A stretch of 64,000 nucleotides of DNA from Seleniivibrio woodruffii (GCF_004339245.1 NZ_SMGG01000003.1:1178770-1242769), one strand, 5' to 3'. Counted from the first letter of the stretch, positions 26,140-36,604 are shown. A program made the numbers and translations. The notes: generated by a model from the letters alone, not told the origin.

Positions 26140-26212
26140 GCGGGTATAGCTCAGTTGGTAGAGCGCGACCTTGCCAAGGTTGAGGTCACCGGTTCGAGTC
26201 CGGCTACCCGCT
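26140..26212 (+). tRNA. tRNA-Gly (anticodon GCC), copy 1
   Basis: A 73-base cloverleaf: acceptor GCGGGTA with TACCCGC, D-arm with AGCTCAGTTGGTAGAGC, anticodon loop TTGCCAA (GCC), T-arm GGTTCGAGTCC. CCA is not encoded. It is identical over its full length to the copy at 33841-33913. Confidence 0.97.
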
Positions 26213-29057: not shown

Positions 29058-30977
29058 TTATATGTATCTCTCTATCAGCCCGTTCATAAGGCTGATGAGT
29101 TTTTCCGTCTCCTGTTGAAGACTGTTCAGGTCGTCCGTAACGTTCTCCCCTCTGGCTATTCTGGATTTCATCCTTTCCGCCTGATCGTGGAGATTACGGT
29201 GCACCGAGTCTATTTCGGAATAGTAGGGGTCGCTGCCGAAAGTTTCCCTGCCCGTGCCTCTGTAGAATGCTGTGAACTCACATGAGTCATAGCCGGGGAT
29301 GTTTATGGGCTGTTTATACATTGCGCCGTGATAGATGTTTTTCATCATCAGAACATGGCTGACCTTAGCATGGATTATGGGCAGAACGGCCGACTGGAGG
29401 GTGAACTTTTTCAGTTCCTTCTCAGATTCGTCCAGAAGCCCGACCACTGTCTCAACGCCGCCCACCATGGTATCTATGCCGCCGGAGTTGGCATCGCTCA
29501 TTCTGGCCACTTCGTCAATATTCGCCGCAATCTGGGTCATAGCCGCCGACTGCTGCTGAACGGATGAGGATATATGGGTCATGATGGAGCTGAGATCCTC
29601 GACTGACGACTGGATGGTGGCGAATTTTTCGTTTGCCTCGTTCACCTTGCTCAGCTGAACGTTAACCTTGCTCATCATGTCTTCGGCTTTGTCCACAGCA
29701 TTCTGAACCTTGCCCTGCATGGCCTTTACCACCGTGGATATGTTCGATGCGGATTCGTTGGTCTTCTCGGCCAGCTTGCGAACCTCGTCTGCGACAACAG
29801 AGAATCCTCTGCCCGCTTCGCCCGCTCTTGCGGCCTCTATTGCGGCGTTCAGAGCCAGCAGGTTTGTCTGCTCGGTTATGTCGGTGATAACCATAACGAT
29901 ATCGCCGACCTCTCTTGATGAGTTCAGAAGCTCTGTCATCTCCGTTGCAAGCACGTTAACAATTCCGCCCACCTCGGTTGATATGGCCGTTGTCTCCTGC
30001 ATTACCGCCAGACCTTCTTTAGACATCATAAGTGTGTGTTCGGCCTTAACGGACGAATCGCTTATGTTTTCTGCGGAATCCCGCACAGTGGTGCTTATCT
30101 CTTCGCTGGCGGCGGCGACTTCGCCCGCCAGTCTCATTGTTTCGTTGTTCATCTGCTTGATCTGCATTGTGGTCAGTGTCAGCGGGAGCACCTGTTCCAT
30201 TATGTTCGAAATGGACTTGAAAGTATGCAGAATGTCCGTGCCGATGATATGCATGAACTTGTTGTAGCGGTCGGATATCTCGCCCATTTCGTCGTTTGAC
30301 TTAATGTCCGATTCCAGACTCAGGTCAAGGTTCTCCGATGCTTGCACTATTGTGTCCTGAAGCTTGCCCACGTTCCGGATGACCAGACGGGTCACAAGGA
30401 AGTAGATGCAGAATATCAGCAGTGCGCCGCTCAGCATAACGAAAATATCCGATATCAGCGACATACTCTGAACGTTGTTCAGGGATTTGCGGCTCAGCTT
30501 GACATAGTAGTAGGAGTTGATGGAGCCTTCCTCCCAGTCGGTGTGACAGCGGAGGCAGTAGCCGATTGTTTTAACGGGGAACAGGTATACGTTGTTGTCG
30601 TCCTCGGGGTGCATGTCCTCTTTGTCGGTGAGGATTGACGGATCTTTTTTGGTTTTCACCAGTTCCTGCTGAGATGAATAGGAGATGGTTCCGTCGGGCT
30701 GCACCAGAGAGAACTCGGTGACATCCTCATACTTGCCTATCTCCTCGATAAGGTTGTTGAAGGTCATCATGTTCCCTTTTTTCAGGGCGTCGAAGGTGGA
30801 CATGTATATCATGTCCTTGAGGTAGTTCATATATCTGTTGAGTGATTTTTCCACCATGTGCAGTTTGATGCTTTCGAAGACTATTGTTCCGAAGATGGTG
30901 AAAGCGATGATTATCACCGTTGCGATGGCCATTTTATGCTTGAGTGACAAGCGGTATCCCTTCTGTGCGTTCATCAT
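29058..30977 (-). CDS. chemoreceptor with periplasmic heme-c site and C-terminal CZB domain
   Basis: The 639-residue receptor has membrane segments at about 17-37 and 176-197. The periplasmic part between them contains C141-L-R-C144-H145, a c-type heme attachment motif, as in the heme-c PAS-like sensors of Geobacter chemoreceptors. A HAMP-like region and signalling domain follow ([19 protein letters not shown]). The last 110 residues match a chemoreceptor zinc-binding (CZB) domain: [21 protein letters not shown] and SVHRNLHD provide His, Cys, His, His. Its ATG overlaps the stop of the hydrogenase small subunit (ATGA), with GGAGGGG 8 bases upstream. A redox or H2-linked chemotaxis role is inferred from this operon. 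Confidence 0.93.
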
Positions 30978-31933
30978 TTGCCGCCCCTCCCGAGTACATT
31001 CTTCTTAAAGTCGTTCCACGGAAGGTCTTCGATGTTCCGTGACTCATAATAGATGTTCTCTTTGAACGGCCATTTCTCGTTGACACAGCCCACGCAGGGG
31101 GTGTTGCTCTCAACGCAGACGTTCACGCCGCCGTTCCATCTTCTGGTGGGGCAGTCGGATTTTGTTATAGTTCCCCTGCATCCTTTTTTCAGCAGACAGG
31201 AGTGCTTGTCGGTGTTGAAGTCTTTAAGGTATATATCCTGCGAGAAATACTGGAATCTGTGGCAGTTGTTGTGGATAAGGTCGCCGAAGTATTTCACGGG
31301 GATATTGTTTTTCATTTCCGGCAGTCTGCCTGTGGCAACAATATATGCCACTGTGCCCATGAGCCTGTCGGGCTGTATGGGGCAGCCGGGTATTTTTATC
31401 AGGGGTTTGTTGATGCCCACCTGACGCATATACTGGGCGATGTCTATCGAACCTGTTTCGTTTCTGCCTGAGGCGGGTATGCCGCCGGAGCAGGCGCAGG
31501 TTCCGCAGGCAACGACGGCGGATGCCTTCTCAAGATGTTTTTTCAATGCGTTGTAGAGGGGCTCTTCGCCCAGCAGACAGGCTTTTTTCATTCTGGCGGG
31601 GATACTTCCCTCCAGTACCAGAACGTGGCCTCCTGCGGATGTCACGCTGTCCAGCAGCTGCATGTATCCGTGCCCCTGACTGAAAGACAGGTTGGGGTGC
31701 ACCTGAACACGCACCAGACGTGTGACAAAATCTATGAAGTCGGTTTCGTTGCCGTATGTCATTGAGACTGTGCAGCCGGTGCAGCTCTGCCCCTGAACGA
31801 AAGCTATCTGGGGACGCTTTGAGGCCGCTATCTTCATGAAACCTTCCGCTATGTCCGCCGCAAAAATCTCCGCACCGAACACAGCAACTGATATATCTCT
31901 GCATCTTTTTATGAAATCTCTTCTGCTCAGCAT
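30974..31933 (-). CDS. [NiFe] hydrogenase small subunit, Tat-type, no membrane anchor
   Basis: The 319-residue electron-transfer subunit begins [10 protein letters not shown], a twin-arginine signal with a rather weak hydrophobic part. Proximal cluster ligands are C51, C54, C146 and C184; distal ligands H221, C224, C246 and C252; medial ligands C261, C280, C283, with C273 where standard enzymes have proline, suggesting a medial [4Fe-4S] rather than [3Fe-4S]. It ends [13 protein letters not shown] with no membrane helix. I start at 31933 because this gives the Tat motif, 10 bases after the large subunit stop, with GGTGA upstream. No cytochrome b or maturation genes are adjacent. Confidence 0.93.
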
Positions 31934-31943
31934 GTTCTTCACC

Positions 31944-33383
31944 TCAATGTACCGAGCAGGCGGTGCAGGGGTCATAGCTTCTGATAACTCTGCCCACCTC
32001 AATTGAGCCGCTCTCGCCGCCGAAACGCACCGGAGTGCCCAGAATGGATTTTTCCGCCACGCCGTGCTTCCCGCCCGCTGTGGGGCCGAAGTTCCATGTG
32101 GAGGGGACTATCATCCTGTAGTCTGTTACTTTTCCGTTGTATGCCTTTATGTGGTGCACCAGAGCACCTCTGGCCGCCAGCGAAAAGCCTATGCCTTCGC
32201 CTGTGACGTTTGCCTGAAGGTCAACGTGGTTGATTGTGGATTTGCCTATGACAAACTCCTCGGAACGCTCGAACAGATAGTTGCAGAGCAGACGTGATTC
32301 GTATGCCCTTGCCAGAAGTCTGCCCATCACCGATGAGCGGATGGACGACTGACCGAAACGTGCCAGAAACTGCCTGAATCCCTGATCGTTGTTCACAGCC
32401 ATTCGGGCGAGGGGGCCTGTTTCAAGGGGGAATCCGTTGTATCTGGGAGCTTTTATCCAGCTGTATGCGCCCTTTGCGGACTCGTTTGGGCTTCCGTCGG
32501 GGTTATAGAACGATGAGTTCAGAAGTTCCTTTACCTTTTTATAGTCAAAGGGCTGTTTCTGCCCGTCAACGATAACGCCGGAGTTGAACAGCCAGCCTTT
32601 TTTCGATTTGAGCGATGTGTGGGCATAGAAGGTGTTGTATGCCTCGCCTATCCTGAAATATTCCGGATAGCGTTCCGCCAGCACCATAACGTCGGGGATG
32701 AAAGAGTTGTTCACGAAATCCGCCGTTTTTGTGAGGACGTGGTAGTACTTCATCAGAGTGTCGGTGGTTATCTCCGTTGTAATCCCTCCGGGGAGCAGAG
32801 CATGGATGAACGGAACCTTGCCGCCTATGAGAGCCAGACCGGATGCCGCTTCGGCACGGATCTTCAGTGCCTCGAAATAGTGGAGGGCAAAGCGTCGTGC
32901 CACCTCTTTGTCTCTGATATAGTCGCCGGGAGTTTTGTTTATGACGAACATTGTACCCGACGAGCTTATCCAGTCGGATATGTTTTTAAGGTTGGCGTCT
33001 CTGCCGGAATAGCCTGCCGCCGCCGCATAGTCAATGTAGTCCGGTGAGCAGAGATTATAAAAATGAAGAAGGTGATCTGTTACGATATGAAGACCAAGAA
33101 TCATGTCCCTGAGCACCTGACCGTTTGCAGGCGGGGTGACCTTGAATATCTGCTCAAGAGCCATTACGGAGGAGATTCCGTGTACCTCGTGGCATACACC
33201 GCATATCCTCTGGGCAATTCGGGCTGAATCCACAGGGTGACGGTTGAAAAGAAGTCTTTCCATACCGCGGTACATATTTCCGGCGATCCTGACCTTGGAG
33301 ACTCTCCCGCCCTCCACAGCCGTTTCGACGCTCATGTGACCCTCAATGCGGCTGACGGGGTCAACAGACAATAAAGTAGACAT
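31944..33383 (-). CDS. [NiFe] hydrogenase large subunit lacking a C-terminal extension
   Basis: The 479-residue subunit holds the active site: RIEGH near residue 15, R59-ICGVCHEVH with C61 and C64, and DPCTACSVH with C473 and C476. The stop codon comes directly after the final H479. Most large subunits carry 15-30 more residues that a maturation protease removes; their absence is known for regulatory (sensory) hydrogenases. Start at 33383 follows GAGGAC and begins the family motif; the frame from 33410 adds nine residues. First gene of a three-gene operon with the small subunit and a heme-c chemoreceptor. Confidence 0.94.
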   Translation of the reverse strand: MSTLLSVDPVSRIEGHMSVETAVEGGRVSKVRIAGNMYRGMERLLFNRHPVDSARIAQRICGVCHEVHGISSVMALEQIFKVTPPANGQVLRDMILGLHIVTDHLLHFYNLCSPDYIDYAAAAGYSGRDANLKNISDWISSSGTMFVINKTPGDYIRDKEVARRFALHYFEALKIRAEAASGLALIGGKVPFIHALLPGGITTEITTDTLMKYYHVLTKTADFVNNSFIPDVMVLAERYPEYFRIGEAYNTFYAHTSLKSKKGWLFNSGVIVDGQKQPFDYKKVKELLNSSFYNPDGSPNESAKGAYSWIKAPRYNGFPLETGPLARMAVNNDQGFRQFLARFGQSSIRSSVMGRLLARAYESRLLCNYLFERSEEFVIGKSTINHVDLQANVTGEGIGFSLAARGALVHHIKAYNGKVTDYRMIVPSTWNFGPTAGGKHGVAEKSILGTPVRFGGESGSIEVGRVIRSYDPCTACSVH

Positions 33384-33491
33384 AGTTGTCCTCTGAATTT
33401 GGATTACCAATAAAAAAACAAATAAGTATAAGTCTGTATTTATTATGAACTTAGGTCAATAATGGTTAATCAATGTCTATATAGAAATTTA

Positions 33492-33518
33492 GTTATAATT
33501 ATTTCAACCATTTGTCAA
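33492..33518 (-). promoter_or_regulatory. candidate promoter of the hydrogenase-chemoreceptor operon
   Basis: On the minus strand TTGACA (33518-33513) and TATAAC (33497-33492) are separated by 15 bases, a short spacing. It lies about 110 bases before the large subunit start. The whole 33384-33840 gap is AT-rich and otherwise gene-free. Confidence 0.35.
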
Positions 33519-33579
33519 GAACATATATAGCTAAATTCAATAAGAGGATGTGTGGTTTGTTTAATAACTTACCTGAAAT

Positions 33580-33840: not shown

Positions 33841-33913
33841 GCGGGTATAGCTCAGTTGGTAGAGCGCGACCTTGCCAAGGTTGAGGTCACCGGTTCGAGT
33901 CCGGCTACCCGCT
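33841..33913 (+). tRNA. tRNA-Gly (anticodon GCC), copy 2
   Basis: Identical over all 73 bases to 26140-26212. The promoter boxes are also shared, but flanks beyond them differ, so it looks like an old gene duplication under selection rather than a fresh repeat. Confidence 0.97.
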
Positions 33914-34765: not shown

Positions 34766-36604
34766 ATGTTGAAAAACATGAAATTGTCGAAAAAACTTCT
34801 TCTTGGTTTTGGCGTGGTGCTCGGTCTGCTGGTGGTTATCAGCCTTCTGAGCTTCAGCAAAATGCTGTCCATTTCAAAGCAGGTTGAAAAGCGTGATATG
34901 TATTCAAAGGTTGAAGAACTGCTGTATGAAGCGAGGCTGAACCAGACAAAGTTCATTATGAACAATGACGACAGCTTCATTGATGCTGTTTTGAAAAATC
35001 TGGACGATGCGGTCAGGATTTCCGATGTGGATCTGGTTAAATATGCCGGTGTGCAGGATGCAGAAAGGCTGAAGGAGATAACCGGAAAAATAAGCGGTTA
35101 CAGAGACAACTTCAACAGCTACGTAGGCGAGGTCAGGAAACAGCGGGAACTGCGCATTCATCTTAACGAGTCTGCTGAGAACGTTTTTACCATAGCCGAC
35201 AGCGTCGGTTCGGACAGTATAATCAAAAATCTTCTCCAGATGCGGCTCTATGCTTTCAGATATATCATGACTCAGACGGACGATCTTTTCAGCGGTCAGC
35301 AGGCGAGTTATAAAAAAGCTCACGACATCGCTCTTGCCGGAGGGGATTCGGCGGAGATGAAAAAGCTGACGGCTTCTCTTGAGGAGTACGATGCAGATTT
35401 CCACAATCTTGCGGACAGCCTGAAAAAACAGCATGAATATCAGAAAGTGCTTATTGAAAGTGCGGTAACGGCGCAGAAGATATGCGCCGAGGCTTCGGGA
35501 GTCGAAAGGGCGGCAATGGACGCATCCATAAAAACCGCAATGGTCTTTGTGGGCATCTTTTCGCTCATAGCGGTTATAAGCGGAATAGTTATCGGACTTA
35601 TAATAACAAGGTCGGTCACAGTACCTATGAACAAGGCTGTGGTGTTTGCCAACTCTCTGGCCGACGGAGATTTCACGGTGGAGCTTGACATAAGGCAGAA
35701 GGACGAGATAGGCCAGTTTGCGCTTGCACTGGAAAACATGAAACACAGGCTGAAAGGGGTCATAGAGGGGATCGTGCATTCGTCAAACTCGCTCGCATCA
35801 GGCAGTACGGAGCTGGCGGGCACAACGGAAGAACTCTCCGCAACCTTCACCGACCAGACAGGACAGGTCAGCGGGGTGGCTTCGGCGGTTGAGCAGATAA
35901 GCGCATCATCCTCGCAGGTGCTGGTATCCATAAACGATGTCACAACAAAGTCGAAAGCGGCGAAGGAACTGACCGACGAAGGAAAAACATGCATCCTGAC
36001 TGCAAACAGGGTGATGAACCATATTCAGGAGAGCGTGGGCAGCCTCACCAGAACTGTTGACGGACTTGAGAAGTCGTCTCAGGAGATAGGCAGCATTCTG
36101 CTTGTGATAAACGATATAGCCGATCAGACGAACCTGCTGGCTCTTAATGCGGCCATAGAGGCGGCGAGGGCAGGGGAACACGGCAGAGGTTTCGCCGTTG
36201 TTGCGGACGAGGTTCGCAAGCTGGCGGAGCGCACCCAGAAGTCAATTCAGGAGATAGAGCAGATTATTTCAACCTTCATAGTGGAAACCTCAAAGACAAA
36301 CGAAGATATGCAGAGCGCAGGACACAGCGTTTCGGAAGGGGTAGAAAAGCTGGCCACCACTGATGATATTTTCAAAAAGATAGTCAGGGCGGTTGAAGAG
36401 ATAAACAGCGCAAGCCTGATGATCACCTCCGCCGTGGAGGAGCAGGTTTCTGCGATAAACAATATTAATGATAACACTCAGGTGATCTCATCGGGGCTGG
36501 AGCAAAGCTCGGCTGCTCTGGTTCAGGTCAGTGCGACCATCTCCGACCTGCAAAGGCAGGCCGACGAGCAGATGAGCGTCACCGGAATGTTCAGGATAAA
36601 CTGA
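34766..36604 (+). CDS. methyl-accepting chemotaxis protein, paralogue of 7199-9016
   Basis: The 612-residue receptor starts [16 protein letters not shown] like the gene at 7199 and has the same plan: membrane segment about 11-31, 230-residue helical periplasmic domain (HBM-like), membrane segment about 262-283, HAMP and signalling domain ([35 protein letters not shown]). The periplasmic parts differ widely, so ligands should differ. A GAGGGGG ribosome site precedes the ATG. Transcription may come from the promoter at 34422 under the XRE regulator. Confidence 0.94.

Follow-up and report, generated by a model that had tools for sequence, protein, structure and literature searches.

What is a [NiFe] hydrogenase doing in one operon with a chemoreceptor? 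The question is raised by three adjoining genes on the minus strand of a 64,000-nucleotide stretch of DNA from Seleniivibrio woodruffii (GCF_004339245.1 NZ_SMGG01000003.1:1178770-1242769), the whole of which is called the window below. The genes encode the large and small subunits of the hydrogenase and a transmembrane receptor with a heme-c attachment motif, and such a set is referred to here as a triad. The original prediction, made from the sequence of the window, was that the genes form an H2-sensing chemotaxis module. Comparison with other genomes points to a periplasmic H2 sensor, in which the oxidation of H2 would reduce the heme of the receptor and the reduction would be read as a signal; we place the probability of this reading at roughly 0.66. 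The features that define the triad, numbered from the first nucleotide of the window, are:

31944..33383, minus strand: [NiFe] hydrogenase large subunit, 479 amino acids, group-1-like, without a C-terminal extension (PF00374 3.6e-98; NiFe ligands intact)
31947..31973, minus strand: DPCTACSVH motif with NiFe-site ligands, the last residues of the large subunit
30974..31933, minus strand: [NiFe] hydrogenase small subunit, 319 amino acids, with a twin-arginine translocation (Tat) signal and without a membrane anchor (PF14720, PF01058)
31907..31927, minus strand: Tat motif SRRDFIK of the small subunit
29058..30977, minus strand: transmembrane heme-c chemoreceptor (methyl-accepting chemotaxis protein, MCP), 639 amino acids (MCPsignal 7.4e-44; two membrane helices)
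30447..30875, minus strand: periplasmic sensor domain of the receptor, predicted Cache fold (AlphaFold2 model, Foldseek; conserved among triad receptors)
30543..30557, minus strand: CLRCH heme-c attachment motif, receptor residues 141-145 (CxxCHxxW in every triad receptor compared)
29499..29984, minus strand: MCP signalling domain of the receptor

The structural details given in the original prediction are borne out. By their coordinates, the large and small subunit genes are separated by exactly 10 bases, and the small subunit and receptor genes overlap by ATGA. The large subunit ends at DPCTACSVH without an extension. The small subunit begins with MLSRRDFIK, which contains the Tat motif, and hydropathy indicates no membrane helix. 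The CLRCH motif is positioned between two predicted membrane helices of the receptor, on the periplasmic side. The operon contains no gene for a cytochrome b or HybB partner.

The large subunit ligand motifs RICGVC and DPCTACSVH are intact, and alignment shows that all cysteines of the Ni-Fe site and the ligands of the proximal and distal clusters of the small subunit are kept. A degraded or inactive hydrogenase is ruled out, because every metal ligand is intact. At the medial cluster, all triad small subunits have a fourth cysteine, whereas the two respiratory paralogs have proline, and three [4Fe-4S] clusters are therefore predicted. The H2-sensing regulatory hydrogenase (RH) has three [4Fe-4S] clusters with the same medial cysteine (PMC5665086), and the NiFeSe enzymes share this cysteine. 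No triad small subunit listed lacks the twin arginine. The two respiratory-type small subunits encoded in the S. woodruffii genome have a hydrophobic C-terminal helix, which hydropathy does not indicate in the triad small subunit. The closest solved relatives of both subunits are [NiFeSe] hydrogenase sequences, and the best NCBIfam and PDB relatives belong to group 1. However, the scores are far below the family cut-offs (HysA, 337 bits against 780; small subunit family, 213 against 470). The DPC position is cysteine and there is no in-frame TGA, so selenocysteine is not encoded. In a search of plasmids, the best matches were Hyb-type or of other kinds, at most 31.5% identical.

In the receptor, the CLRCH motif and the second membrane helix are followed by HAMP and MCPsignal domains; MCPsignal scores 150 bits, whereas HAMP, at 18.2 bits, remains below its cut-off of 25. 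CxxCHxxW does not vary among the triad receptors compared, and within the Deferribacterales set the same holds for STxDxLKKGNM. Residues M50 and M70, candidates for the distal heme ligand, are invariant in the Deferribacterales set but not in the receptors of the sister class. No Pfam family matches the sensor above its cut-off; the weak matches are to Tll0287-like, Mcp40H-20 and dCache, of which the Tll0287-like family PF11845 is matched by six of 13 members with a best E-value of 0.048, below the cut-off. A search of PDB sequences with the sensor profile gave no significant match. A model of the sensor, calculated by AlphaFold2 from two sequences with a predicted local distance difference test score (pLDDT) of 65, has a Cache fold and is matched by Foldseek to domains of WalK, CitA and DctB, and more weakly to the heme-c chemoreceptor domains of GSU0935 and GSU0582. 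In sCache_heme proteins, an insertion between strands 3 and 4 of the Cache fold carries the CxxCH; in this model the motif is in a low-confidence loop between strands.

The pair was expected to recur and to be co-inherited, and this is what the genomes contain: 22 triads were found in 18 genomes, and the gene order is always large subunit, small subunit, receptor. The order is therefore not unique to S. woodruffii. Seventeen of the triads are in 13 genomes of Deferribacterales, among 51 genomes of the phylum that were surveyed. Three are in a sister class (three genomes), where the receptors carry a second CxxCH, and two, with the same order and features, came to light in another phylum near a distant match to the sensor. 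A restriction to Deferribacterales is ruled out by the triads in the sister class and the second phylum. Since about 430 genomes were sampled overall, the spread of the triads is a lower bound. Within a 385-genome sample, unextended hydrogenases from outside the phylum are about 22-25% identical to the references and have no heme receptor within flanks of 1.5 kb; several pattern matches in this sample are not hydrogenases, and the reading covers its loci apart from six. A scan of GTDB contigs found one relative only, because the patterns used were specific to this sequence.

The large subunit ends without an extension in all 22 triads, and the survey of the phylum yielded no unextended group-1-like large subunit outside a triad. 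The best matches outside triads, including those partnered with cytochrome b or HybAB, are only 34-38% identical, so close homologues with HyaC-type partners, a sign against the original prediction, were not found among them. These non-triad large subunits are respiratory in type where readable and have the extension wherever the C-terminus is readable. Their loci, where readable, mostly have the small subunit gene first and contain a gene for cytochrome b, HybB or a protease; both readings cover the non-triad loci other than L123, L125 and L127. In a tree of large subunits, which contained no [NiFe] group 2c sequences and involves long branches, all 22 triads are on one side of a branch with support of 89/86. 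A single origin of the triads is likely from these sequences. Among 30 chemoreceptors read in the S. woodruffii genome, only three carry a CxxCH before the signalling domain; two of these are the neighbours of the hydrogenases. Chance adjacency of the genes is ruled out by this rarity together with the recurrence of the triad.

The part of the original prediction that needs revision is the output. Chemotaxis stands as the predicted output of 19 triads, in which the receptor is an MCP, but it is not the sole one: in the other three, the same sensor domain is joined to PAS-PAS-GGDEF-EAL. Two of these three triads are in Flexistipes-type genomes. In the third (L046, 2600-5284), GGDEF and EAL are in separate reading frames; the gene may be frameshifted or truly split, or the sequence may contain an error. 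The two Flexistipes-type genomes have only a weak match to the CheA family (E about 1e-8) and no canonical CheA, and CheA matches of about 1e-19 or better are found in all genomes of the phylum whose triad is of the MCP type. One of the Flexistipes-type genomes, G015, is taken as Flexistipes sinusarabici, which is described as non-motile (PMC3236037). The pattern of CheA and output rests on one clade and is a consistent observation, not a statistic. Identities of the large subunits and of the sensor regions across triads are correlated with r = 0.97, a value to which shared organismal descent contributes. Taken with the conserved gene order, the comparison strongly supports a predicted co-function of hydrogenase and receptor.

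In the proposed mechanism, the Ni-Fe site would be assembled by the general Hyp machinery (HypD is encoded in the genome), C-terminal cleavage would be unnecessary, and both subunits would be exported together by Tat through the signal of the small subunit. Oxidation of H2 would take place in the periplasm. The acceptor of the electrons, delivered through the three [4Fe-4S] clusters, would be the one c-type heme that the receptor carries on its Cache-fold sensor domain rather than a quinone-reducing cytochrome b. The redox state of the heme, set by H2 against periplasmic oxidants, would alter the receptor signal, which would reach CheA as a chemotaxis signal in S. woodruffii and act through a cyclic di-GMP (c-di-GMP) enzyme in three relatives. 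The intact ligands, the export signal, the lack of an anchor and an extension, the periplasmic heme motif, the conserved operon and the exchange of outputs on a constant sensor support this mechanism at the level of sequence. Physical contact of the enzyme and the receptor, reduction of the heme by H2, the direction of the response and H2-dependent swimming are steps that we infer.

Three points favour a sensing role over a metabolic one: the receptor is the sole electron acceptor encoded in the operon, respiratory-type hydrogenases are encoded elsewhere, and Denitrovibrio acetiphilus, as which genome G018 is taken, carries a triad although the species does not grow with H2 as electron donor (PMC3035293). 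Somewhat better than an even bet, in our view, is a more specific form of the proposal: the exported hydrogenase passes electrons from H2 directly to the covalent heme, the receptor thereby registers a gas that it does not bind as a redox state, and either a chemotaxis or a c-di-GMP output is attached to this same unit.

Several observations weigh against a dedicated H2 sensor. Many related heme-c receptors have no adjoining hydrogenase, and the sensor type is thus not H2-specific by itself. Such related sensor domains are found at L173-L176, in the phylum of genome G330, with no hydrogenase beside them and some near response-regulator-like genes. The triad of Denitrovibrio (G018, L035) has an insertion sequence between the small subunit and receptor genes, so that this copy may be impaired; the DDE transposase gene is at L035 4033-5454, and the last residues of the small subunit deviate from those of relatives. 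Contig G020:C5 has a sensor-GGDEF-EAL gene without adjoining hydrogenase genes, although its product could be served by the triad that the same genome carries at another locus. This orphan sensor-PAS-GGDEF-EAL gene (L076, 6628-9306) has an ortholog, L046 in genome G019, that follows hydrogenase genes; a pyruvate kinase neighbour is common to both loci, indicating that the hydrogenase genes were probably lost at L076. Finally, a signalling protein of the heme-Cache family sCache_heme, which was described in 2026, has properties typical of nitric oxide (NO) sensors (PMC12889525).

The alternative that survives best, itself unlikely, is that an ordinary periplasmic hydrogenase feeds soluble cytochromes, that the receptor reads the general redox state of the periplasm, and that the two share an operon only through common conditions. 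Some [NiFe(Se)] hydrogenases are soluble enzymes of the periplasm and reduce cytochromes, some heme-c receptors have no hydrogenase neighbours, and a multiheme cytochrome gene is positioned near the second triad copy of S. woodruffii. However, no cytochrome gene travels with the triad, the pairing is kept over two phyla and through duplication of paralogs with a change of output, and both the separate respiratory-type hydrogenases and the growth phenotype of Denitrovibrio argue for a sensor. Considerably less probable is that the heme senses a gas such as NO and that the hydrogenase merely keeps it ferrous, H2 being the power source and not the signal. The properties of sCache_heme and the nitrate-reduction genes of cultivated Deferribacteres (PMC6896113) would be consistent with such a role, whereas no conserved nitrogen-oxide gene is found beside the triads and the sensor is not recognisable as a member of PF11845. 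Least probable of the three is sensing by docking as in HoxBC-HoxJ, in which the state of the hydrogenase would alter the receptor without heme reduction: RH does act with a kinase partner and shares three [4Fe-4S] clusters and the lack of an extension with the triad enzymes, but the CxxCHxxW would hardly be expected to be invariant in all triads compared if reduction of the heme played no part.

The triad resembles several known systems in part. The regulatory hydrogenases HoxBC/HupUV (HydDB group 2b) likewise have no C-terminal extension, three [4Fe-4S] clusters and a signalling-protein partner. They are, however, cytoplasmic and lack a Tat signal, whereas the triad enzyme is group-1-like and predicted from SRRDFIK to be exported, and their partner is a histidine kinase instead of a transmembrane heme-c MCP or GGDEF-EAL protein. 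Among solved sequences, both subunits are closest to the [NiFeSe] enzymes HysAB (group 1), which are exported and have three [4Fe-4S] clusters; the triad differs in having cysteine for their selenocysteine, no C-terminal extension and a receptor gene in the operon. The membrane-bound uptake hydrogenases Hya and Hyb have an anchor and a cytochrome b or HybB partner, and the triad has neither.

Among the classes listed in HydDB (PMC5037454), [NiFe] 2b is linked to histidine kinases, [NiFe] 2c is putatively linked to diguanylate cyclases and [FeFe] C2 is putatively chemotactic. The latter two resemble the triad in the proposed sensing of H2 via c-di-GMP or MCPs. They are other hydrogenase classes, [FeFe] C2 being an H-cluster enzyme and the triad large subunit a member of the NiFe family PF00374, and HydDB describes none of its classes as pairing an exported enzyme with a heme-c receptor. 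GSU0935 and GSU0582 (Mcp40H-20) and the sCache_heme/Tll0287-like proteins also have a CxxCH on a periplasmic Cache- or PAS-like domain before MCP or other outputs, but the triad sensor is below both Pfam cut-offs. The 2026 paper on the heme-Cache family does not mention a hydrogenase partner (PMC12889525). Methanococcus maripaludis swims toward H2, according to Brileya et al. 2013 as cited in PMC4266047; it shares this behaviour with the proposed function but is an archaeon. Searches of the open literature on hydrogenases with chemoreceptors, H2 sensing and these genera gave no description of a unit of this design, subscription papers being outside this scope.

Gradients of H2 shape syntrophic and subsurface communities. 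To our knowledge, the characterised [NiFe] H2 sensors are cytoplasmic regulators of hydrogenase genes, no dedicated bacterial H2-taxis receptor has been identified so far, and no hydrogenase-receptor unit is known for M. maripaludis. A compact and recurring three-gene candidate for an H2 receptor is now named in cultured species, and its paralogs and the exchange of outputs serve as natural controls that make the question of H2 taxis directly testable. If the proposal is true, H2 would be sensed outside the cell membrane in a previously undescribed way that steers swimming or, in a few organisms, a second-messenger system, and a receptor could sense a substrate that it does not bind through wiring to the enzyme that consumes it. 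We know of no described precedent for such enzyme-wired signal reception.

Four group-1-like large subunits are encoded in the S. woodruffii genome. The second full triad is on contig C5 (L008, 6888-10889); its large subunit is 51% identical to that in the window and also ends with DPCTACSVH, and the genes that follow encode a small subunit with a Tat signal and a chemoreceptor with CLRCH but without CZB. At L008 1408-2898, an 11-heme cytochrome gene adjoins the genes of ATP synthase subunits a and c, an order kept in relatives at L039-L043. The two further large subunits are respiratory in type and have C-terminal extensions; one belongs to a Hyb hydrogenase with HybA, HybB and a maturation protease, and the other has an anchored small subunit. 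The third group-1-like small subunit (G000 contig C3, L010 4437-5555) has CSGD in place of the CxGC of the proximal cluster, and this replacement of cysteine by aspartate may make the cluster unusual.

Two additional features belong to the operon in the window:

29172..29357, minus strand: CZB (zinc-binding) domain, weak, at the receptor C-terminus
33490..33521, minus strand: predicted sigma-70-type promoter of the operon, a TTGACA block followed by an AT-rich -10-like block

The CZB domain scores 24.9 bits against a cut-off of 29.4, whereas that of the ortholog L036, with 31.3 bits, is above it. The promoter candidate block is conserved in four orthologous upstream regions. Simple patterns gave no sigma-54 or sigma-28 promoter, save one distal sigma-28-like match in one ortholog. 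Upstream of the operon, in divergent orientation, is a second, unrelated chemoreceptor of 612 amino acids without a CxxCH (34766-36604); genes for a tRNA and a small helix-turn-helix protein lie between it and the operon. The operon region is flanked by tRNA genes at 26140-26212 and 33841-33913, which have equal scores and are possibly identical copies.

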